A program made the position numbers and the translations under genes. From a virus, in the IMG/VR virus record IMGVR_UViG_3300023439_000006, positions 1-22,566 of that record: DNA of 22,566 nt; one strand, 5' to 3'. The notes beneath the pieces are model-generated. The model was not told the DNA's origin, made no database searches, and saw nothing but the letters and a program-made list of their open reading frames with translations. Each line of letters begins with the position of its first letter. Position 1 is the stretch's first letter. Below are positions 1,008 to 17,771 of this stretch, in pieces.

Positions 1008-2012
1008 TTACCAAGAATCATTTAAATTTTCGGGGGGATCGCCACGCATTTCATCAGTTATTGTTAATTTAAAAGTTTTTACACCAGCATTTGCAATGCC
1101 AACAACTTTGCCATCACGCATATCTTGCATAATTTCCTTATGTTTGGCGGGCTGGCGCCCTTTAACCTCGTTTGTTTCAAGCCAAAGATTCATAAACCCA
1201 CCTTTGGAATATGATTCAAATTGAAACCCCAATGAATCCATGGACATACCAATATTATGATCATAATCTGAATAAAATATAAGACTTTCAACGGGGACAC
1301 TCCTTTTCGCCACACGCATTGTCCTATAATTTTTAATAAAATATTTTATAAGCTTTGACGAGCCACCAAGTACTTGTGAGAATCTTACCGTGCCAACCCG
1401 CAAAACCTCAATATCACCCTTTTGGCCAAAATAATTAAGACCAAATGTATAAATCATCAATAACTCACCAGACTTCATTCCATGTTTATCTTTTTTTAAG
1501 CGTAGCCCCAAGTTTAAAGACGCGCCACGTTTACCATAAAAACAATTTTTGAGCTCAAATGCGCGGGCTTCTTTTGTTTCGATAACATCCACAATGCAAT
1601 CGCGAGCATAAAACCGGTTTGGTGTTTTTCCAGCAGCATGTAAAAAATATGATTTTAATACTTCGCGTTTACGTTCGGTATTCCATTCATAATCTTTAAC
1701 CCAACATTTAAAAGAGTTATTTTCTTCCGCTGCTATGGATCGCAAATAAAAATAATCCCCTTTGACACCTTTGACACCGTTGTTCTTATGCTCCACCGGA
1801 TATAATCTGGCCGGCACATACTCAATTTCATAACCCCTTGCGCCATCTTTACATCCGGTAAATTTAAAATTCCCACCGGTTGTAGAATAATCAATATTGT
1901 GCAAATCGAGAAAATCTTTAATTTCCTGTAAATTTTTCATGTCAGAAGAATTAAAATTTTCAGTGCAAATATTATCTAACGTACGAGATTTTTCTAGTGG
2001 AATACTAACCAC
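1008..2012 (-). CDS. Hef-like homing-endonuclease homologue, probably degenerate nuclease
   Basis: This 334-residue protein has a GTG start at 2012, preceded by AAGG about 9 bases away and lying 3 bases after the gp45 stop. An in-frame ATG at 1940 lacks a ribosome site. The order of motifs is that of a common group of phage Hef-like/EDxHD-type homing endonucleases: an IKDFLDLHNI opening (31-40), DYEWNTERKREVLKS (107-121, usually EDEWN..K..I..S), RFYARDC (133-139, usually IYARKC), a 'FL..NH.QG' region here changed to FELKNCFYG (152-160), GELLMIYTFG, VLGGSSKLIKYF (214-225) and SLIFYSDYDHNIG then LGF (243-263). The stretch where such proteins carry the 'EIDIYIP...IE.NG.YWH' nuclease core is only GYEIEYVPARLYPVE, and the NH is NC. 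It may be an inactive or repurposed copy. A duplicated 9-base unit encodes VKGVKG at 79-84. Family assignment rests on motif memory. Confidence 0.6.
   Translation of the reverse strand: MVSIPLEKSRTLDNICTENFNSSDMKNLQEIKDFLDLHNIDYSTTGGNFKFTGCKDGARGYEIEYVPARLYPVEHKNNGVKGVKGDYFYLRSIAAEENNSFKCWVKDYEWNTERKREVLKSYFLHAAGKTPNRFYARDCIVDVIETKEARAFELKNCFYGKRGASLNLGLRLKKDKHGMKSGELLMIYTFGLNYFGQKGDIEVLRVGTVRFSQVLGGSSKLIKYFIKNYRTMRVAKRSVPVESLIFYSDYDHNIGMSMDSLGFQFESYSKGGFMNLWLETNEVKGRQPAKHKEIMQDMRDGKVVGIANAGVKTFKLTITDEMRGDPPENLNDSW
1761..1778. repeat. 9-bp tandem duplication (2 copies)
   Basis: TTTGACACC occurs twice in a row within the Hef-like gene and encodes VKGVKG on the minus strand. The reading frame is preserved. 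Confidence 0.85.
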
Positions 2013-2015
2013 CGA

Positions 2016-2720
2016 TTAAACCTTGACGCTTAAAATAATTTGCAGGCCCTCCAATGAATTAGAACACATGAAGATCCGATAACTATCCCGAGCTGAATTA
2101 TATTTTACATGAACGGTATAATCAGAAACAGGCAACATTTTAAAATTCTCAACTGGAATTTTTATAGTAAATTGTTTTGTTGTAATTGCCTGTTTAATAA
2201 CTGAAAATGTATTAGACTTGGCATTAAATTTATTGGTGGCGCCTAGTGAAACGGTCATATCTGAATCTTTAGATGTAAAAATTACCTCGGACAGGTCTTT
2301 GAATACACTAGTACCCGATTTAATCTTTTTAATATCAGCGGTACTTAAATTAAATTCAGCCACAGAAGGCATATTTTCCATTTTTGTGAACTGATCCGTG
2401 GTTTTATTGTATGCATCCATAAGTGCGATATTATTAACAATAAATGTCGAAGTCGTATTATCACAACTAATATTAATTGTATTTTCATCAATTGTAATTT
2501 CCCGATCTTCTGGAAATAGTTTCAATAAATTCAACAAATCACCAAGTGTATCTTTTATTCCAATATCTGGAAATGTGTCGCCATCTAATGTTGATGTTGG
2601 AATTAAAATTTGCATATCTTGTGCTTCAGAAACCGCAATAGTATTTGGATATTTCAAAATAACGGAATTAGTCATTCCATTAATTTCTTGTAGTACGTCT
2701 GTAAATGCTTTATTTAACAT
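2016..2720 (-). CDS. gp45: Sliding clamp of DNA polymerase (gp45)
   Basis: The 234-residue product is close to the 228 residues of T4 gp45. Start ATG at 2720 follows a strong AAGGAG. Matching segments are the N-terminal LQEINGMTNSVILKY (T4 has a similar 'SGIMLKSG'), a mid-region GDLLNLLKLF where T4 has GFLGILSLV, and the C-terminal block TIKIPVENFKMLPVSDYTVHV followed by LEGLQIILSVKV, which aligns with the T4 stretch 'INMANMKMQPGNYKLLLWAKG...YVVALEADS'. gp45 is a ring-shaped trimer that tethers the polymerase and, in T4-like phages, is also the mobile enhancer of late transcription together with gp33 and gp55. That fits the TATAAATA promoters in this window. It lies between the parM-like gene and the Hef-like gene, all in one direction. 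No clear promoter is visible directly upstream. Confidence 0.85.
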   Translation of the reverse strand: MLNKAFTDVLQEINGMTNSVILKYPNTIAVSEAQDMQILIPTSTLDGDTFPDIGIKDTLGDLLNLLKLFPEDREITIDENTINISCDNTTSTFIVNNIALMDAYNKTTDQFTKMENMPSVAEFNLSTADIKKIKSGTSVFKDLSEVIFTSKDSDMTVSLGATNKFNAKSNTFSVIKQAITTKQFTIKIPVENFKMLPVSDYTVHVKYNSARDSYRIFMCSNSLEGLQIILSVKV

Positions 2721-2809
2721 CTATTCTCCTTCATTTTAAATTATTTTATCATATTTCCTATGAATAAATGATGAAACCGTATTATTTTAACTAATTATCG
2801 GATGGTATA

Positions 2810-3760
2810 TTATACTCTAGTTAATCCAAACAATGCAAAACCAATGCTATTCATATATTCATGTTTGGTTTTGGGCACCCGAATAAATCCGTCATCAGAA
2901 TTTTGGAAAAATGTTGAGCCACCACCGGATAATGAAATAAAATCGCATTTATCCAAAATTTTACCATATTTGGTTTCAATTAAAGCTAAAAGCTCTTTAA
3001 GATACTGTTTCTTAACTTCGTCCACATAATCTTTAAAATTATACTGCTGACCGCGAAGTTTATAAATCCCTGTATCGAGAATTTCTCGCGCCTCTTGCAG
3101 GGTAATTTGTCGGCCATGCATTTCCTTCACTTTCTTTGCTATTAAAGTGCCAATTTTCATAACACCTTCACGTTCTATACCTTCAAACAAATTGGGGGAT
3201 GTTTTACCGTCAGTAACTAAAAAACAATCCAAGGTCTGTTGACCAATATCAATTCCGACATATGTTGTTTTTCCAGTAAATTCGGTTTGTTCATCAGGGA
3301 AACTGTTGCCATATTTATCAATACAAAGTTTTGAACCAGCACCCTGCGGCAAAATATAAACGTTATCGAATTTATGCTTAGTGCCATTAACTTCAAAATG
3401 CATCAGCCCGTCTTTAAAATGGCCTGAATTTTCAATTTGTGCTTTTGATAGTCCGGAAACAATAATGTCTGGTGTTTTGTCTATAATTTCCAAAGCATGA
3501 AATAAAAATAGTGGCGCATAATGTTCAAGATTTTTATAATCTGTTATATCCACCAAATTTTCAGAAGGTAGATGCAGCGCGCTTTCGCCAACATAATAAC
3601 TGTATCCATTAAAATCATAGATGCGGCTATCATTAATATGTTCATTGCGGCGTGTTATACCGATTACAGATGGGAATTTAAATTGTTTTACAATTTCACC
3701 ATTTTCAATAAACGTTATTTTAACAGCGCCATAACCAATATCTATACCTAAAATTTTCAT
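2810..3760 (-). CDS. parM: ParM/Alp-type actin-like filament protein
   Basis: The 316-residue product has the actin/Hsp70 ATPase fold signatures in order: phosphate-1 loop ILGIDIGYGAVKI (3-15), phosphate-2 loop YVGIDIGQQTLDCFLV (167-182, Asp171) and adenosine motif ISLSGGGSTFF (275-285). Length matches plasmid ParM (about 320 residues) and Alp proteins rather than MreB or FtsA, and there is no amphipathic membrane helix. ParM-type proteins form dynamically unstable filaments that push or pull DNA through an adaptor (ParR) bound to a centromere. The start ATG at 3760 has a strong AAGGAG. An early-type promoter lies at 3793-3822. The gene sits between gp45 and a pair of small linker proteins with a shared tail, which are candidate adaptors by position only. 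An alternative is a phage-specific role in moving DNA or replication complexes. The superfamily call is strong; the function is inferred. Confidence 0.88.
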   Translation of the reverse strand: MKILGIDIGYGAVKITFIENGEIVKQFKFPSVIGITRRNEHINDSRIYDFNGYSYYVGESALHLPSENLVDITDYKNLEHYAPLFLFHALEIIDKTPDIIVSGLSKAQIENSGHFKDGLMHFEVNGTKHKFDNVYILPQGAGSKLCIDKYGNSFPDEQTEFTGKTTYVGIDIGQQTLDCFLVTDGKTSPNLFEGIEREGVMKIGTLIAKKVKEMHGRQITLQEAREILDTGIYKLRGQQYNFKDYVDEVKKQYLKELLALIETKYGKILDKCDFISLSGGGSTFFQNSDDGFIRVPKTKHEYMNSIGFALFGLTRV

Positions 3761-3792
3761 CCATCTCTCCTTAATTATTAAGATTTTAATTT

Positions 3793-3822
3793 ATTATACA
3801 GGGGTTTTACTTAATTTTACAC
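3793..3822 (-). promoter_or_regulatory. Probable early promoter for the parM-like gene
   Basis: On the minus strand GTGTAA (3822-3817) is followed by 18 bases and a consensus TATAAT (3798-3793) with an extended TG. Spacing is identical to the four GTTTAC-N18-TAnnAT promoters elsewhere in the window, but the -35 matches only 4 of 6 positions. Confidence 0.5.
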
Positions 3823-3841
3823 TCGTTCGGTATTTAACGTA

Positions 3842-3893
3842 TTAATGTGCATTAACCACCGTTAAACACATTATGCATTATTAAAAGTGTGTT
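3842..3893. repeat. Palindrome cluster upstream of the parM-like gene
   Basis: TTAATG-TG-CATTAA (3842-3855) is a perfect 6-bp-arm palindrome. It is followed by AACACA (3865-3870) and TGTGTT (3888-3893), inverted arms enclosing ATGCAT. These lie between the parM-like gene and the preceding small gene. They could be an operator, a centromere-like site for an actin system, or a weak hairpin ending the upstream message; there is no U-run typical of an intrinsic terminator. Confidence 0.5.
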
Positions 3894-4176
3894 ATATATC
3901 TAAATTTTGTAATTCCGGCGCAACCTTTGCGGATCTAGATATATTATTTATTTTTGGCAATGCCACAATTTCTGGTGTTATTTCAACACAGTCATCCGTA
4001 TTTAAAAAATCATCACTCGGTTGTTTATTTGTTTTTGTCGAGGTATTTTTGGCACGTGGTTTTGGTGTTTGTTTTGGTGTTTGTTTTGAACTTTTTACAG
4101 TTTTTACAGTACCATCTGTAAAATTAATGGATAATTCATCTATATCTTTTGAACACGTTATGTGCAACTCAAACAA
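3892..4176 (-). CDS. Small protein with basic Lys/Thr/Pro linker and conserved C-terminal tail
   Basis: The 94-residue frame starts with TTG at 4176, since no N-terminal ATG exists. GAGAGA precedes it, and it overlaps the end of the GIY-YIG-like gene by 19 bases. The N-terminus (FELHITCSKDIDELSINF) looks like short beta strands. Residues ~23-52 are a disordered basic linker built partly from two tandem duplications, encoding TVKTVK and KQTPKQTPK. The C-terminus ends RSAKVAPELQNLDI. A neighbour at 4559-4834 has the same plan and ends RVHKSIPDEMLNLEI. No known family recognised. A folded head, flexible linker and fixed tail suggest an adaptor that presents its tail to a partner. The adjacent actin-like protein and the gp45 clamp are candidate partners by position only. 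Confidence 0.6.
   Translation of the reverse strand: MFELHITCSKDIDELSINFTDGTVKTVKSSKQTPKQTPKPRAKNTSTKTNKQPSDDFLNTDDCVEITPEIVALPKINNISRSAKVAPELQNLDI
4059..4088. repeat. 12-bp tandem repeat (2.5 copies)
   Basis: GTTTTGGTGTTT occurs twice in a row and then half again. It encodes a KQTP repeat in the linker of the overlapping small protein and keeps the frame. Confidence 0.9.
4092..4109. repeat. 9-bp tandem duplication (2 copies)
   Basis: TTTTTACAG is duplicated and encodes TVKTVK in the same small protein as the 12-bp repeat next to it. Confidence 0.85.
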
Positions 4177-4559
4177 TTTTCTCTCTCAAGTTCTTCGGCT
4201 TTAGTAATAATATCTACTATCATTTGTTTATGTTCAAGCATAAACCATTCCTTGGATAATGTGGTTGGTTCAGTATTATCATACATATAATTAAGAATTT
4301 TACGTTCAGTTTCATAGACATCTTCAAACATATCGCTTATGTACAACATTTTCGCAGTTGGATGTGGTTTATCTGAATTATATTGGCACAACCTTTTATA
4401 TAAATCACCAGTTCTCCCAACTTTAATATGGTCCGGGAATTTTGTATCATATAATACATACATATAACCCCGTCTGTCAGTATATTTTTCAAGCGGTGGT
4501 AATCGATATGATTTAAGATTAAATTCGGATAATTCGTTTGGGTTTGGTACTTCAATCAT
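4158..4559 (-). CDS. GIY-YIG-like protein of the T5orf172/MUG113 type
   Basis: The 133-residue product has the arrangement of the T5orf172/MUG113 branch of the GIY-YIG nuclease superfamily: YMYVLYD (32-38), HIKVGRTGDLYKRLCQY (44-60, with Arg56 in the expected place), DVYETERKILNYMY (80-93, acidic residues Glu83/Glu85) and EWFML (104-108). Proteins of this group are found in phages, in homing endonucleases and in Bro-like proteins; many have no proven nuclease activity. Start ATG at 4559 follows GGAG, and that ribosome site is formed by the last codons of the upstream gene, whose TAA overlaps the ATG (TAATG), so the two are probably translationally coupled. It is sandwiched between two small genes with a matching C-terminal tail. 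Confidence 0.72.
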   Translation of the reverse strand: MIEVPNPNELSEFNLKSYRLPPLEKYTDRRGYMYVLYDTKFPDHIKVGRTGDLYKRLCQYNSDKPHPTAKMLYISDMFEDVYETERKILNYMYDNTEPTTLSKEWFMLEHKQMIVDIITKAEELERENCLSCT

Positions 4560-4834
4560 TATATCTCCAGATTAAGCATTTCATCGGGAATTGATTTATG
4601 CACACGGGTAGGCTCAAAGCTTTCAGTGACCGTATCAAAATCGGGGGCAACGATATTTATATTGGGTTTAACCCCGGGGTCGAGTGTGCTAGTTTCATCA
4701 ACTATGTCACTTTCAACCCTGTCAACTGACACCGCGTCGGTTTCATCAACTGAGGATATATCAGCAAGTTCTATATCAAATTTTACCCGTTTAACATATT
4801 TATCGGTTGGAATATTCTCAATCTTAATTATCAT
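4559..4834 (-). CDS. Small acidic linker protein, apparent relative of the 3892-4176 product
   Basis: The 91-residue frame is read from an ATG at 4834. A longer frame from a TTG at 4873 is possible but overlaps the upstream gene and is less likely. The N-terminus MIIKIENIPTDKYVKRVKFD resembles the beta-rich head of the 3892-4176 protein. A long acidic, Ser/Asp/Thr-rich segment follows (SSVDETDAVSVDRVESDIVDE), and the protein ends RVHKSIPDEMLNLEI. The shared pattern with the neighbour is R-x-x-K, Pro-Glu or Pro-Asp-Glu, then N-L-[E/D]-I-stop. One linker is basic and the other acidic. The ribosome site for this gene is weak. No family recognised. It probably belongs to the same coupled chain as the genes around it. 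Confidence 0.6.
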   Translation of the reverse strand: MIIKIENIPTDKYVKRVKFDIELADISSVDETDAVSVDRVESDIVDETSTLDPGVKPNINIVAPDFDTVTESFEPTRVHKSIPDEMLNLEI

Positions 4835-4841
4835 AATTCTG

Positions 4842-5336
4842 TTACCCGTTAAATAAATTTCTGTCGCGAACAATATGTTTAAATATAGAATATGAAAAGA
4901 TTAAATTATCATATAACGCGGTGATATTATGATCGATTTCATTATATAAAACTTCATCATATGTATAACTTAATGTATGCTTTTTATATTTTTGCATTTG
5001 TATTTCTAATTCGGCAAAATTGGTTGATGGTATATTCCGCAGATTTAAATCACTTTTCAAATCTGCCAATTCGCTCAATTTTAATAAAATAAATTCATAT
5101 AAATTGGCGATTTGCGTGGTACTAATCTTATCAATTAAGCGTGGATTTTCCAAATATAACAACGCCACCTTTTTACTTTCGTCTAATAATACATCGGCTA
5201 ATTTTGAATGATGTTGCGCCGATTTAAACATATTATTATACAATACGGAAAGTTGGGAGTGTATAGAACGGGTTTTATCTAAACTCCCGGAATCCTCAAA
5301 TGTGTGTTCCTCTACTGTATCAACCTGTTCATTCAT
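4842..5336 (-). CDS. Unrecognised alpha-helical protein, 164 residues
   Basis: ATG at 5336 follows GAGG and overlaps the stop of the upstream gene (ATGA). After an acidic N-terminus (VDTVEEHTFEDSG) the sequence is almost wholly helical, with heptad-like leucines (LSVLYNNMFKSAQHHSKLADVLLDES, then YEFILLKLSELADLK) and a C-terminal half rich in Tyr and Asn. No motif identifies it. Its length happens to equal T4 gp16 (small terminase), which is missing from its normal place between gp15 and gp17, and gp16 is also a helical protein, but I see no convincing alignment. Its location in the replication module argues for a replication or recombination accessory role instead. Confidence 0.75.
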   Translation of the reverse strand: MNEQVDTVEEHTFEDSGSLDKTRSIHSQLSVLYNNMFKSAQHHSKLADVLLDESKKVALLYLENPRLIDKISTTQIANLYEFILLKLSELADLKSDLNLRNIPSTNFAELEIQMQKYKKHTLSYTYDEVLYNEIDHNITALYDNLIFSYSIFKHIVRDRNLFNG

Positions 5337-11923: not shown

Positions 11924-12010
11924 TGGTGGGTATGGAAGGATTCGAACCTCCAACGCTTCAAAAGTCCAGATTTACAGTCTGGCGCAGTCCACCATCTCTG
12001 CAGCATACCC
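11924..12010 (-). tRNA. tRNA-Tyr (anticodon GTA), CCA encoded
   Basis: Acceptor arms GGGTATG (12010-12004) and CATACCC (11934-11928) pair perfectly, followed by discriminator A and an encoded CCA (11926-11924). The anticodon stem CCAGA/TCTGG encloses CTGTAAA, so the anticodon is GTA (11975-11973). There is a long variable arm of the class II type, normal for bacterial tRNA-Tyr, and a T arm GGAGG-TTCGAAT-CCTTC. It is read on the minus strand, 6 bases downstream of tRNA-Gln. Confidence 0.96.
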
Positions 12011-12016
12011 ATTATT

Positions 12017-12090
12017 TGGATCTCCCTCAAGGATTCGAACCTCAATTGCCTGGATCAAAACCAGGTGTCCTACCGTTAGACGAAGGGAGA
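12017..12090 (-). tRNA. tRNA-Gln (anticodon TTG), CCA encoded
   Basis: Acceptor TCTCCCT (12090-12084) pairs with AGGGAGA (12027-12021); CCA is encoded at 12019-12017. The anticodon stem CCTGG/CCAGG encloses TTTTGAT, giving anticodon TTG for CAA codons, and the T arm is TGAGG-TTCGAAT-CCTTG. Total 71 bases plus CCA. The discriminator base is U, whereas E. coli tRNA-Gln uses G there. It probably helps translate AT-rich late messages and is likely co-transcribed with the thymidylate synthase and acb1 genes. Confidence 0.95.
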
Positions 12091-12096
12091 ATTAGT

Positions 12097-12519
12097 TCAT
12101 ACCTCTAAATCTTCTATATATAATGTTTTGGTTTCAAGCTGGAATCCCATAAAAAAATTATTTAAAAATTCCCAGTCACCTATATCATAACTCAATGTAA
12201 TATGTTGGTTAAAATCTTTAAAATCCGTCGTACAACCCATGCTGATATATTTATTATGTTCTTGGACCATTTGTGGTGAACTTATCGTTAATACTAAAAT
12301 ATTTTTGTCGTGATCTTTCCAAACTTCTAATTTTTTTGTCCATGCAAAATAACTAACATTTTTAATTTCACGCGTGATCGGCACTGGTTTCTTTGAAAAT
12401 ATCAATGTACTATGAAAATTGTCGACCGGATTAGGAACCTTTAATTTTTTACATAATTTAAAAAGTTTTTTACAAGTTTTTTTATTAAATGTTACTGCTA
12501 TATATGTGCCCATTGTCAT
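12097..12519 (-). CDS. acb1: Acb1-type anti-CBASS 2H phosphodiesterase
   Basis: The 140-residue product (138 if the second ATG at 12513, MGTYIAV, is used) has the two H-x-T/S motifs of the 2H phosphoesterase fold: FHSTLIFSKKP (35-45, His36/Thr38) and QHITLSYD (105-112, His106/Thr108). The whole layout follows T4 Acb1: an MGTYI opening, a 'VTLLYTKTP' counterpart (STLIFSKKP), ILVLTISS then EHNKYISMGCTTDFKDFNQHITLSYD (T4: LVLLLDADALTARHEEMKQFGGTYDF..FLPHVTLSYD). Acb1 cleaves the cyclic di- and trinucleotide signals of CBASS, stopping host abortive infection. No strong ribosome site is seen for either ATG. It lies 1 base after the thymidylate synthase homologue's stop, so coupling by that gene is likely. 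The family call is strong; activity is inferred. Confidence 0.88.
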   Translation of the reverse strand: MTMGTYIAVTFNKKTCKKLFKLCKKLKVPNPVDNFHSTLIFSKKPVPITREIKNVSYFAWTKKLEVWKDHDKNILVLTISSPQMVQEHNKYISMGCTTDFKDFNQHITLSYDIGDWEFLNNFFMGFQLETKTLYIEDLEV

Positions 12520-13703: not shown

Positions 13704-14660
13704 CTAACGTTTAACACGAATGACTGTTTTGCCAATTCGTTTTTCATATGCGGCTAAAATTCTAAGGCCTCTAAAGCCCAATGATTTATTATTCCGTGAA
13801 CGATCTTGCCGTATTAAAAACCACACGTTATTAGTATGATTCAAATCTTTTAACGATGTTATAATTTCGCTGCAATTAATAATTAAATCCGAACCAACCA
13901 GCTCAAATGAATGCGGTGTAAATGTTTTTTGAATAATAGCGCCCTGTCCCTTGATAATATCTGAACCAAATACAACCGCTTTTTTTTCTGCAGTGGTCGC
14001 TTCAAACGCTATATTATTACTCATTTTTGTTATGCCGTTATGTTCATGCGATAATTTAATAATCCCATCGTTTTGAGCTTTAATCAACACTTTCCGGGCA
14101 ATCCCACCCATATTGCGGTCACCGGATTCCCAATATTCGGCGTTATCTTTTTTAATGGAAATCGGCACAGTTTTACTCAATGTAATTAAATCGACATCCG
14201 ACTTTTTCCCACCCGCTGTATGTGTTCCGACACCATTGGCTTTAATTACATTTTTCACTACAAATTTTTTATTTTTAGATTTAAAAATAATATTAATCGG
14301 GCCACTTGCTGTAAATTGATTAATAGTATCAATAAATACTTGCTCGTTATCTAAACCCGCAGATTTTTTATTTGTGCTACCAGACAGGCCACCAAATTCA
14401 CTAGTTTTGTAAAACGCATTTAATGATAATTCACCAGCATCGGTCTGAAATTTAAACCCTTTGATGGGTTTACCCTTGGATATATTATCAATAGCATTAA
14501 TATTATCACCAGTATTCAAAACGATTACATTACCAGTAGTTGTTTCAAACGGGGAGCCGTTCAAAACCTTTTCACGAAATGTGTACAAACGGTCTGGATT
14601 AAGCTTAAAATTGGCGACACTCAAAGATTGTTCGCACAAAAATTTTTTAAATCCCATCAT
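13704..14660 (-). CDS. Putative virion-packaged PD-(D/E)xK-type nuclease
   Basis: The frame is open much further upstream, but AAAGG and an ATGATG at 14660/14657, overlapping the end of the previous gene, give the real start: M(M)GFKKFLCEQSLS. That is a capsid-targeting-like peptide with an L-x-E cut site. The 318-residue product has, around residues 104-182, a plausible restriction-endonuclease core: Glu106 in a helix (LDNEQVFIDTINQF), THTAGGKKSDVDLITL (146-161, Asp155/Asp157), then VPISIKKDNAEYWESGDR (165-182, Lys170/171). Similar proteins with this 'KsDV...iSiKK.na.y.SGD' arrangement occur in T4-like phages without known function. If packaged, it could attack host DNA or process phage DNA on entry. 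The fold call is tentative. Confidence 0.75.
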   Translation of the reverse strand: MMGFKKFLCEQSLSVANFKLNPDRLYTFREKVLNGSPFETTTGNVIVLNTGDNINAIDNISKGKPIKGFKFQTDAGELSLNAFYKTSEFGGLSGSTNKKSAGLDNEQVFIDTINQFTASGPINIIFKSKNKKFVVKNVIKANGVGTHTAGGKKSDVDLITLSKTVPISIKKDNAEYWESGDRNMGGIARKVLIKAQNDGIIKLSHEHNGITKMSNNIAFEATTAEKKAVVFGSDIIKGQGAIIQKTFTPHSFELVGSDLIINCSEIITSLKDLNHTNNVWFLIRQDRSRNNKSLGFRGLRILAAYEKRIGKTVIRVKR

Positions 14661-16155
14661 ATGCACCTTTAATTTCTTCATACATTCCATGAATTGCTTT
14701 GGGTGTGTATTGTTTAAAATATGTTTCATTATATATATTATCAATAATTTTACTAGCTGAAATATCCGATGCTGTTCGGGGCATTTCTTTAACTGATACA
14801 CCAATACTATTTTTGAGTTGTGATTTATAGCTTTGTACTCGATCAGATCCAGCATAAATGGCATTTATATTTACTGGTGATTTTTGCATAATACGTATTA
14901 AATTACCATTTATGGAATGAATGATATGCGCATTTGGAAATGCCGTAGCAATCATTTTTTCACGAAGCGCCTTTGTATTTTTTGTATCTGGTGATGTTAC
15001 AATATCGATAATAACCTCATCATATAATATGCTCGCCCGTTTAATAAGTGCGGCATGGCCGGTAGTTAAAATTCTAAATTTCCCTATAATTAAAACATTA
15101 TTATTACCACGCATTTTTTTAATGATTAATGTTTTTACATTTAATTGAATATCATCTTTAATCATGGCTGGTGTTTTTTTAACGTGTTGGAATGACAATT
15201 TTGTGCGTTTTAATTCGTTTGAAACTTCTGCCATCAAGTCTTTTAAATCTCTTGATTTTACGGTGATGCCATTTGCTATTTCGAGTGCAGTATTTTTGAC
15301 ATTATTCCAATATTTAGTTTCATTTTCTGGGGTGTCGCGGTATTTCATTTTAATGATAAGCCGAGCATCTTGATCTATTTGATAGTCTTGCTGGAATTTT
15401 AAAATACGGTCATGCGTTGTCATTACAACGCCTTCCTCTTTCCCCCCATAATGTGATTCAATATTTAAAAATAATTGTCTAATGTCATCTAATAAAATTT
15501 TAGGGACATCCCAAGTAAATGAGTTTTTAACTGAATCAAATAATGATTTAACCACTTTATGCTTAATGCCGTGTTCAAATGAAATTGGCGAACCTAGAAT
15601 GCCATCAAACAATAATACTGGCACATCAATTTTAAGCTCTTTAGCATACGATATACGATTAGATGTATCGAATACACCCGGTGATGTTTTTAATTTACCA
15701 AATTTTACGGACCACGTACTATGCGTGCTCGCGATCAGAACCATTTTATGTAATTTGGTATAATTAGAACTTAATGTTGGTTTCCGCATTAAATATTCAA
15801 TAAACAATTCCGTACCTACTGGTATTGAATTTTTACCTAAATTCGTAAAATGTTCAATCACGCTTTTAAATTGTGACGCGCCAATTGATTCTTTTTTAAT
15901 TTTTACTTTTGGCTGATAATCATATTCGGTATTATACAGTATGTTACCTTTATATGCTATAATATAATCGTCAATGTTTCCATTATTTGATTGTTTGATA
16001 ACTGTTATTTTTACACCGTCGGTCTTTTGTTCAATAGTAACATTTGTATTTAAAAAATCGACAATTTTTTTATCAGTTGTCAAATATTTGCCAGCCGCTT
16101 GAATGCTAATATCAAGTTGATCCCTTGATTCTGACAAATACGTTTCAAAGTTCAT
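14647..16155 (-). CDS. RNA-ligase-type / NMN-adenylyltransferase-type fusion with capsid-targeting-like N-terminus
   Basis: The 502-residue protein starts MNFETYLSES (L-S-E cut-site pattern). Domain 1 (~35-275) has the ordered motifs of ATP-dependent ligases: IEQKTDGVKI (41-50; Lys44 as adenylated Lys in KTDG), GTELFIEYLM (114-123), EEGVVM (240-245, motif IV) and LIIKMKYR (266-273, motif V). Domain 2 (~345-475) is a HxGH-type nucleotidylyltransferase: VLIIGKFRILTTGHAALIKRA (354-374; TTGH in place of HxGH, as in phosphopantetheine adenylyltransferases) and DISASKI (464-470, the ISSTxxR position). Seal of RNA ends, or NAD(+)-related chemistry, would be typical of the two halves. The fusion itself is unusual. 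ATG overlaps the upstream TGA (ATGA), with GGGAA nearby. Both folds are convincing; substrates are unknown. Confidence 0.86.
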   Translation of the reverse strand: MNFETYLSESRDQLDISIQAAGKYLTTDKKIVDFLNTNVTIEQKTDGVKITVIKQSNNGNIDDYIIAYKGNILYNTEYDYQPKVKIKKESIGASQFKSVIEHFTNLGKNSIPVGTELFIEYLMRKPTLSSNYTKLHKMVLIASTHSTWSVKFGKLKTSPGVFDTSNRISYAKELKIDVPVLLFDGILGSPISFEHGIKHKVVKSLFDSVKNSFTWDVPKILLDDIRQLFLNIESHYGGKEEGVVMTTHDRILKFQQDYQIDQDARLIIKMKYRDTPENETKYWNNVKNTALEIANGITVKSRDLKDLMAEVSNELKRTKLSFQHVKKTPAMIKDDIQLNVKTLIIKKMRGNNNVLIIGKFRILTTGHAALIKRASILYDEVIIDIVTSPDTKNTKALREKMIATAFPNAHIIHSINGNLIRIMQKSPVNINAIYAGSDRVQSYKSQLKNSIGVSVKEMPRTASDISASKIIDNIYNETYFKQYTPKAIHGMYEEIKGAYDGI

Positions 16156-16430
16156 TTTAGTTTCCCAGTTTTTAGAAAATTAACTATACGATCAAACTGA
16201 TTATTTGAGCCAACACCTTTAAAAGCGCCCAAATCGTGACCTTGTATAAATGAGACAGTGCCATCATCATTAAACATAACGGAACGGTCCTCATAATTGG
16301 CAACATCTAACAAGTCAAATTTTGTTTTTGAAAATTTTACACCGGGTAAAGCTTTTTTAATACCGGCAAAAGTCTGTTTATATTGTCCGTTTGAATCCTT
16401 ACTTTCAGATAAATATTCTTTATAACGCAT
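16152..16430 (-). CDS. 92-residue protein with capsid-targeting-like N-terminus
   Basis: ATG at 16430 follows a strong AGGAG. The first residues, MRYKEYLSESKDS, are nearly the same as in the next gene (MNFETYLSESRDQ), with an L-S-E|S site. The remainder (KALPGVKFSKTKFDLLDVANYEDRSVMFNDDGTVSFIQGHDLGAF) looks like a small beta-rich, basic domain. It resembles the size and plan of T4 internal proteins (IPI-IPIII), which are loaded into the head and ejected with DNA; IPI inhibits a host restriction enzyme. No sequence relationship beyond the N-terminus is visible. Overlaps the ligase fusion gene by ATGA. Confidence 0.8.
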   Translation of the reverse strand: MRYKEYLSESKDSNGQYKQTFAGIKKALPGVKFSKTKFDLLDVANYEDRSVMFNDDGTVSFIQGHDLGAFKGVGSNNQFDRIVNFLKTGKLK

Positions 16431-16438
16431 TATTACTC

Positions 16439-16981
16439 CTATGTCTTAATTGTCATATAAAAATTTGCGATATTTTTAAAAATTTTAAAATTTTCGCGGG
16501 CCTGTTTATTTGTGCGCTCAACTTTATAATCAGGGATTAGATTTCTTTCCCCGGATGCGGCTCTGGTATTATTACGTTTTAATGCAGTTTTCAAAGGAAC
16601 ATCTACAAATACAATGGCGGTTTCAAAACCAGCATCTTTGGCCCATTTAAATTTATTTATGACACCATTGACAGATGCGCCGGTGCCCGTGTTCACAACT
16701 GACTGACCAGATTTAAATGTTTTTCGAAGATCCGCTTCGACATTTTTAATGGCTTTAGATACCAATTTCCTGGCAAGTTCAAAATCGCCACCAGATTCTC
16801 GTTTAGTATATTCATCAATGTCTATTAGTTTTAAACCCGAAAAATATAGTTCTTGCACATGCGATTTGCCAGAGGCAACCCCGCCGATAATCATTATAAA
16901 AATTTTTGGACGTTCAAGTAATTTTGATATGGATATTTCTTTTGATTCTATTAAAAAATCCTTGAATTTAATATTAAGCAT
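16439..16981 (-). CDS. P-loop kinase (zeta-toxin/polynucleotide-kinase-like) with capsid-targeting-like N-terminus
   Basis: The 180-residue product begins MLNIKFKDFLIESKE, matching the packaging pattern with an L-I-E|S site. Then IFIMIIGGVASGKS (27-40) is a Walker A P-loop (Lys39, Ser40), and LIDIDEYTKR (52-61, Asp54/Asp56) is the substrate/metal acidic pair. VNTGTGAS (~95-102) and a lid-like RNNTRAASGERNLIP with several Arg complete a small-molecule or polynucleotide kinase fold of the zeta-toxin/AAA_33 type. The substrate could be a sugar-nucleotide, as for zeta toxins, or an RNA 5' end, as for T4 Pnk. Start at 16981 has only a weak ribosome site and overlaps the upstream gene by 8 bases. 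Confidence 0.84.
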   Translation of the reverse strand: MLNIKFKDFLIESKEISISKLLERPKIFIMIIGGVASGKSHVQELYFSGLKLIDIDEYTKRESGGDFELARKLVSKAIKNVEADLRKTFKSGQSVVNTGTGASVNGVINKFKWAKDAGFETAIVFVDVPLKTALKRNNTRAASGERNLIPDYKVERTNKQARENFKIFKNIANFYMTIKT

Positions 16982-17771
16982 GCGTCATATTTTTACCAAG
17001 TAAGTTTTCCCGAGCTAACCGTTTGAGCATTTTTTTTCGCCAGATGGGGTATTCCGACCGAGACAATGACGGAATAATAGCCCGCGATAAAGAATTATCA
17101 TATTTTATCATTTCATCAAATGTCAACGAATCCCAAATTTTTTTCGGAATTGTTCGTTTCATTTGTTTAATTTGATGAACTTGTGAATCCATCTCAAAAT
17201 CGGTAGTGGCAACAGATACACCCGGTGCTACCAATGGCTGATTGAATTCATGGGCATGCTGCAAGCGGTTTAAAATATGGCTATTATGTAATGTGTCGTC
17301 CGCCCAATGATTCAATTCATGTGCAATGCTATTTTTTAGTTTATTACCCAAATAGTCATTTTTAAATTCTACCTGTTGTGATTTAGGTATTGTATCTGTG
17401 AAATAATCCACAGCCCGGTTAAATCTGCTCGTTTTTAAATTAAGCGGAGTGTATTTAATGGCATCAAAAAATCCACTCATTTTAATATAAATGTTTCCGC
17501 TTATTGGGTTATATGCATTTCCATGTCCCAGTGTTTCTATATTAATTAAAACCGGATTTAATTTATCTAATTTTTGAACTAGTTTATTTTTAGAAAATTT
17601 AGCAAGGTTTGCGCTTGTAAGTACAACCATTTTCGGTTTCTCAGGAATATCATCACTAGTTTTTGCTTGTGCGAGTTTTTTAAAAAAATCAGAGTAATAC
17701 ATTTTATATATGTAATCTACAGCAGAGTTTAAATTGTTTGTTTTTTCGTTTAAAAAGTCTACGAATTTCAT
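16974..17771 (-). CDS. HExxH zinc metalloprotease-like protein with capsid-targeting-like N-terminus
   Basis: The 265-residue product opens MKFVDFLNEKTN (L-N-E|K site), preceded by GGAG and overlapping the upstream stop (ATGA). The key motif is SIAHELNHWADD (148-159): His151-Glu152-x-x-His155, a zinc-protease active site in a helix. DFEMDSQVHQIKQ (191-203) supplies a candidate third ligand (Glu193 or Asp195). Nothing suggests secretion: no signal peptide or membrane segment. Similar peptidase-like domains occur in phage polyvalent proteins that enter the host with DNA. Function may be cutting a host defence or regulatory protein, or head maturation. The metal-binding motif is clear; the target is unknown. 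Confidence 0.82.
   Translation of the reverse strand: MKFVDFLNEKTNNLNSAVDYIYKMYYSDFFKKLAQAKTSDDIPEKPKMVVLTSANLAKFSKNKLVQKLDKLNPVLINIETLGHGNAYNPISGNIYIKMSGFFDAIKYTPLNLKTSRFNRAVDYFTDTIPKSQQVEFKNDYLGNKLKNSIAHELNHWADDTLHNSHILNRLQHAHEFNQPLVAPGVSVATTDFEMDSQVHQIKQMKRTIPKKIWDSLTFDEMIKYDNSLSRAIIPSLSRSEYPIWRKKMLKRLARENLLGKNMTHA

Follow-up and report, generated by a model that had tools for sequence, protein, structure and literature searches.

The locus

The window, which is the whole stretch of viral DNA that was analysed (22,566 nt, IMG/VR record IMGVR_UViG_3300023439_000006), encodes an actin-like ATPase among genes of one strand (Table 1). The gp45 sliding clamp gene lies downstream of the actin gene on the same strand, separated from it by 89 nt, and the replication neighbourhood of the actin includes gp45 and topoisomerase genes. 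Upstream of the actin are two small genes, called partner A and partner B in the following. The GIY-YIG/T5orf172-type ORF between B and A overlaps both by a few bases and is a probable homing-endonuclease-type insertion. The intergenic region between A and the actin contains one 10-nt imperfect inverted repeat. Local searches for a parC-like repeat array found none in 2721-5000 and none in 3755-3900, and sigma-70-like promoter sites were no commoner than in shuffled sequences.

Table 1. Features of the actin locus in the window
Feature	Position	Strand	Remarks
HNH/homing-endonuclease-like ORF	1008-2012	-	PHROG 559, 2.5e-19; directly downstream of gp45
gp45 sliding clamp	2016-2720	-	PHROG 223, 8e-19
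ParM/ALP-type actin-like ATPase	2810-3760	-	316 aa; ATG start; stop included
Intergenic region, A to actin	3761-3891		131 nt; no parC-type direct repeats
Partner A	3892-4176	-	94 aa; TTG start; candidate filament adaptor
GIY-YIG/T5orf172-type ORF	4158-4559	-	Pfam T5orf172, 6.3e-10
Partner B	4559-4834	-	91 aa; ATG at 4834; apparent paralogue of A

Identity of the actin

The actin ORF was matched by Pfam ALP_N (5.6e-13) and MreB-like_C (2.5e-12), both above the gathering cut-off, and by PHROG 691 ("partition protein", 5.9e-38), a full-length profile match covering residues 1-312 of 316. In an alignment of 41 relatives, the residues of phosphate 1 (D7, G9, K14), phosphate 2 (D171, G173, T176, D178) and the adenosine motif (G279, G280) were all invariant. 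The window protein differs from well-conserved family positions only at V70, Q174, Q175, G204 and M303, with Q174 and Q175 falling in phosphate loop 2, where the family has F and N.

An AlphaFold (AF2) model of the protein (mean pLDDT 92.3) shows an actin fold and not the tubulin/FtsZ fold of PhuZ and TubZ. The top structural matches, determined using Foldseek and VIA-align, were Ta0583, CorM and pCBH ParM (VIA Z of 27.5, 26.9 and 26.4, respectively), and DnaK-type chains reached a Z of about 23. The two closest structures by this score, Ta0583 and CorM, are cellular actins (from an archaeon and from Anabaena) with 17-19% identity to the window actin. A sequence profile of the actin found pCBH ParM at 9e-23, as well as CorM and AlfA. 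The PDB entries matched by the model include the filament structures 6izr, 9rmi, 4apw and 8r2n, and, by analogy with relatives solved as filaments, the window actin would be expected to polymerise in an ATP-dependent manner.

A profile of the 41 sequences found both control phages at 1e-135 or better and nothing in T4. The Pfam and PHROG matches, the invariant motifs and the model confirm the ORF as a ParM/ALP-family actin with complete nucleotide-binding motifs, and its place beside gp45 and its absence from T4 are confirmed as well. An earlier note on this DNA had described three ATPase motifs at the length of plasmid ParM, in a gene beside gp45 in the replication module of a T4-like phage, with nothing like it in T4, and on all of these points it was right. 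It made no mention of the two conserved small upstream genes, which are the most informative feature of the locus, or of the prior annotation of the actin.

Occurrence, annotation and selection

The search in related phages that the earlier note had proposed recovered the gene widely: a tblastn search with the actin matched 36 phage records, and in a profile search IMG/VR yielded 61 loci and bacterial genomes 21. Identities by tblastn were about 69% for Vibrio Va1-type phages, 51% for Campylobacter CP220-type phages, 43% for Acinetobacter Ab1-TPeters, 42% for Rhizobium phages and 35-37% for Vibrio Va2/1.031/150E35-type phages, with Cobetia Carin-5 being distant. Many of these relatives are already annotated as "MreB-like ATPase", "partition protein" or "ParM-like". 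The actin gene is thus not new, and the window protein is a new member of the known PHROG 691 phage family, to which the actins of Campylobacter CP220, Vibrio Va1 and Rhizobium RHph also belong (42-70% identity) and for which annotation was all that was found. The main text of the CP220 and IBB_35 genome papers is silent on actin, ParM and MreB, that of the CP21 genome paper held nothing relevant to actin or ParM, and a literature search, with subscription journals mostly outside its coverage, found no study of this actin or of A and B.

Three usable pairs gave dN/dS ratios (Nei-Gojobori) of 0.02-0.08 for the actin; a ratio of 0.21, from a pair of near-identical Campylobacter phages, is based on very few changes. 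Decay into a remnant, which the earlier note had considered for the relatives, was visible in a single copy among about 60 (L068:4215-5155, with a frame break near residue 184); this break could be real decay or an assembly error. Given the low dN/dS and the one broken copy, the actin gene is kept by strong purifying selection. In a tree of the actins the partner-bearing phages cluster together; long branches leave the root and the placing of the cellular rows unsure, and the tree was not taken as evidence of direction.

In three Vibrio phage loci (L009, L011 and L012), the actin is longer at its N-terminus by about 25-30 residues and its gene shares one base with the stop of partner A, which suggests translational coupling.

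Two small upstream partners

Partners A and B are built alike: a short module at the N-terminus is followed by a low-complexity linker and then by a conserved tail at the exact C-terminus. Partner A consists of the module MFELHITCSKDIDELSINFTDG, a linker with a net charge of +7 and the tail VAPELQNLDI; partner B begins MIIKIENIPTDKYVKRVKFDIEL... and has a linker with a net charge of -9 and the tail IPDEMLNLEI. In the flanks of relatives, too, the actin is directly preceded by a small ORF of this pattern (with modules such as MFELHITCSKDIDKLNIDFSDG and tails such as VAEELQNFDF), in which the tail forms the very end of the protein. Sequences were collected into family A3 for partner A (35 sequences) and family A6 for partner B (17 sequences). 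The last 36 columns of the two families align in a profile-profile comparison (E 4.9e-9), and intermediate sequences matching both profiles (L037 and L043) suggest that the N-terminal modules are homologous as well. B sits upstream of A in most T4-like relatives. The two genes usually abut, and in several relatives no ORF separates them, their ends touching or overlapping by 1-4 nt. Within the proteome of Vibrio phage SRILMA, a complete relative, the tail motif is present in A and B only.

Searches of Pfam, PHROGs, NCBIfam and PDB sequences with A, and of PHROGs and (for two members) NCBIfam with B, gave no match beyond chance, and no DNA-binding domain was detectable in either protein. The model of A was weak (pLDDT 72.7, pTM 0.26), too much so for a fold search. 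The partner families appear to be undescribed. Their architecture of module, flexible linker and exact C-terminus is, judged from sequence, of the tether type.

Neither A nor B matched or looked like a ribbon-helix-helix ParR; this negative result is a weak one, because the presumed ParRs of plasmid relatives also escape Pfam. The cellular and plasmid relatives of the actin have a small linker-type neighbour with an acidic or aromatic end (DDFNF, KGFNI, DVEYGW or QVEVAW). The N-termini of these neighbours read as ribbon-helix-helix-like, which Pfam and PDB searches did not confirm; since a profile of the ParR-like neighbours of the plasmid relatives found no solved ParR, their ribbon-helix-helix nature is a reading of the sequence only. 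The phage tails may be equivalent to these plasmid ParR-like tails, the short motif having been matched by eye. Two loci in Helicobacter genomes (L075 and L076) encode cellular actins 33-35% identical to the phage protein, each with a small upstream neighbour that resembles a ribbon-helix-helix ParR in its sequence and has DDFNF or KGFNI as its end.

Association of the partners with the actin

Neighbours were counted for the viral actin loci that had 1 kb or more of upstream sequence, 47 after dereplication. Partner A was found in cis in 41 of these, gp45 in 34 and a PHROG 21777-type gene, the next best neighbour, in 26, so that A is more constant near the actin than gp45 or any other neighbour tested. 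Adjacency to gp45, which had been reported for the window, is common but lineage-specific: in the Campylobacter, Rhizobium and Va2-type relatives, no gp45 was found in the vicinity of the actin. The association with gp45 is lineage-bound, and that with A is broader.

Six loci lack A in cis, namely L007 and L063 (CP220 and CPt10), L045 and L050 (apparently one lineage), L051 and L062. For the L045/L050 lineage, L051 and L062, no partner was found in the sequence covered. In CP220 and its kin there is no partner beside the actin; a whole-genome search located one 63 kb away, at 125.9 kb (E 1e-7 to 2e-7), which is annotated as a hypothetical protein and in which both head and tail are present (MIIEIKDFPLNVKRVVLEF...IPDIEREANVSATMQNLKL, with the tail region NVSATMQNLKL). 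This partner is kept though unlinked, so the link between actin and partner outlives gene order. A count of "A or B" in 43 of 47 loci was not adopted, as it includes two doubtful B matches in CP220-type loci (E about 0.003-0.008), which were discounted as spurious-looking.

Scans by partner alone were run with two closer sub-alignments of family A3 as queries. The actin was also present in all 41 loci examined, some of which are overlapping fetches of one contig. No partner match was found in T4, which has no actin, in a search that had no positive control of its own.

Comparison with known systems

In its fold, motifs and length the window actin is like the ParM proteins of plasmid ParMRC systems (R1, pSK41 and pCBH ParM). 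The window locus differs from these in having no detectable ribbon-helix-helix ParR and no nearby parC array, and the phage partners are usually upstream of the actin, whereas they are downstream in the plasmid relatives examined.

The arrangement resembles that of AlpC and AlpA in the Corynebacterium prophage CGP3, where a phage actin and a co-oriented small adaptor gene form one operon (PMC4446434). A is likewise next to the window actin, upstream and on the same strand; the likeness is one of gene arrangement. AlpC has a proposed role in placing phage DNA, as is proposed here for the window actin, and in that system efficient phage replication depends on both adaptor and actin (PMC4446434). 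The alpS repeats to which AlpA binds lie upstream of its operon (PMC4446434), whereas no repeats were found locally here, and the phages considered here are large T4-like ones in which the actin has up to two small partners related to each other. With the PhuZ tubulin spindle of phiKZ-like phages there is a possible shared role, a cytoskeleton positioning phage DNA, built on a tubulin fold there and on an actin fold here.

Interpretation

Organisation of the infected cell is a known role of phage tubulins and of one prophage actin, and no reported function for the actins of T4-like phages was found in the literature search. We give about even chances to the reading that the locus encodes a phage actin positioning system, in which a single ParM-type actin works with one or two small upstream adaptors (A and B). 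The actin would polymerise on ATP, and the acidic-hydrophobic C-terminal tails of A and B would bind the filament in the manner of plasmid R1, where ParM is bound by the C-terminal peptide of ParR (PDB 4a62). The cargo would be held by the N-terminal modules and linkers and would most likely be phage DNA in replication, or the complex that replicates it, and growth of the filament would position or separate that cargo inside the infected cell. Its mode of action would be that of AlpAC in prophage CGP3, except that neither a ribbon-helix-helix adaptor nor a centromere is recognisable. The gp45 and topoisomerase neighbourhood and the AlpAC precedent favour phage DNA or replication complexes as cargo, and it is plausible that the filament positions phage DNA in the way of PhuZ or AlpC. 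A more specific and more tentative proposal is that the tiny adaptors form a new class, lack a ribbon-helix-helix domain and couple a widespread phage actin through their tails not to a centromere but to another cargo, namely replisome, capsid or membrane. Were that so, T4-like phages would own a dedicated intracellular transport machine, and adaptors working without a centromere would be a new way of coupling an actin filament to cargo. The partner family tracks the actin across Vibrio, Campylobacter, Rhizobium, Acinetobacter and uncultivated phages, and offers a direct handle in the form of two or three small genes open to deletion, tagging and reconstitution.

Several other readings were weighed. 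A and B may be regulators of the filament (nucleators, cappers or bundlers) and not cargo adaptors, with the filament pushing or scaffolding alone. Their tiny, mostly disordered chains without a recognisable cargo-binding domain would suit such a role, and two similar copies with oppositely charged linkers fit a tuning of filament dynamics; this reading is nonetheless unlikely, as a conserved N-terminal module apart from the tail suggests a second binding partner and adaptor coupling is the rule in known ParM-type systems. That the filament moves capsids or membranes and not DNA, with A and B binding a head or membrane component (compare capsid transport by PhuZ), is improbable: the actin gene lies near the gp45 and topoisomerase genes of replication and outside the head module, even though A and B show no DNA-binding domain and phage cytoskeletal filaments have been tied to the placing of both DNA and particles (PhuZ, PMC4244570, PMC9067925). 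A non-polymerising actin-fold ATPase acting as a nucleotide switch in replication or chaperoning would be consistent with the occurrence of the actin/Hsp70 fold in non-filament ATPases, with the Z of the DnaK-type chains and with Q174 and Q175 in place of F and N; it is judged distinctly improbable, given that ParM-type and archaeal actins come first among the structural and profile matches and that several of these were solved as filaments.

Two further readings draw on the neighbouring genes. RB69 gp43 carries a C-terminal gp45-binding peptide, and the hydrophobic-acidic-hydrophobic ends of the A and B tails resemble it. With gp45 often adjoining the actin locus, the tails may be sliding-clamp binding peptides that tether the filament to gp45 on replicating DNA. 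This was rejected as the main reading because the tail motif is private to A and B in SRILMA, where the annotated polymerase piece has ESLDDW at its end and the motif is missing from other replication proteins; pairs of actin and A also persist where gp45 is undetected nearby, and a clamp tether is accordingly very improbable. Least credible is a standard plasmid-type ParMRC cassette supporting a plasmid-like carrier state of the phage. A ParM-type actin with adjoining small genes would fit it, but A and B are not detectable as ribbon-helix-helix ParRs, no parC-like repeats adjoin them, SRILMA has no annotated integrase, repressor or plasmid replication gene, and the CP220 relatives are described as virulent (PMC2853527). 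The plasmid-like state was the part of the earlier interpretation that found no support; an intact ParM-type actin under purifying selection, in a replication neighbourhood and absent from T4, was the part that stood.

Other features in the window

An Acb1-type anti-CBASS protein is encoded at 12097-12519 on the minus strand (Pfam PF23474, 8.1e-30), where it adjoins thymidylate synthase and the tRNA-Tyr and tRNA-Gln genes at 11924-12090. In 13704-17771 (minus strand), five consecutive ORFs, one of them an AAA_33 kinase, have [FY]xx[FY][LI]xE at the start or near a plausible start (MNFETYLSESRD, MRYKEYLSESKDS, MLNIKFKDFLIESKE, MKFVDFLNEKTN and MGFKKFLCEQSLS). These N-termini resemble the capsid-targeting sequence of T4 internal proteins, and the five ORFs might encode enzymes that are packaged in the head and injected.
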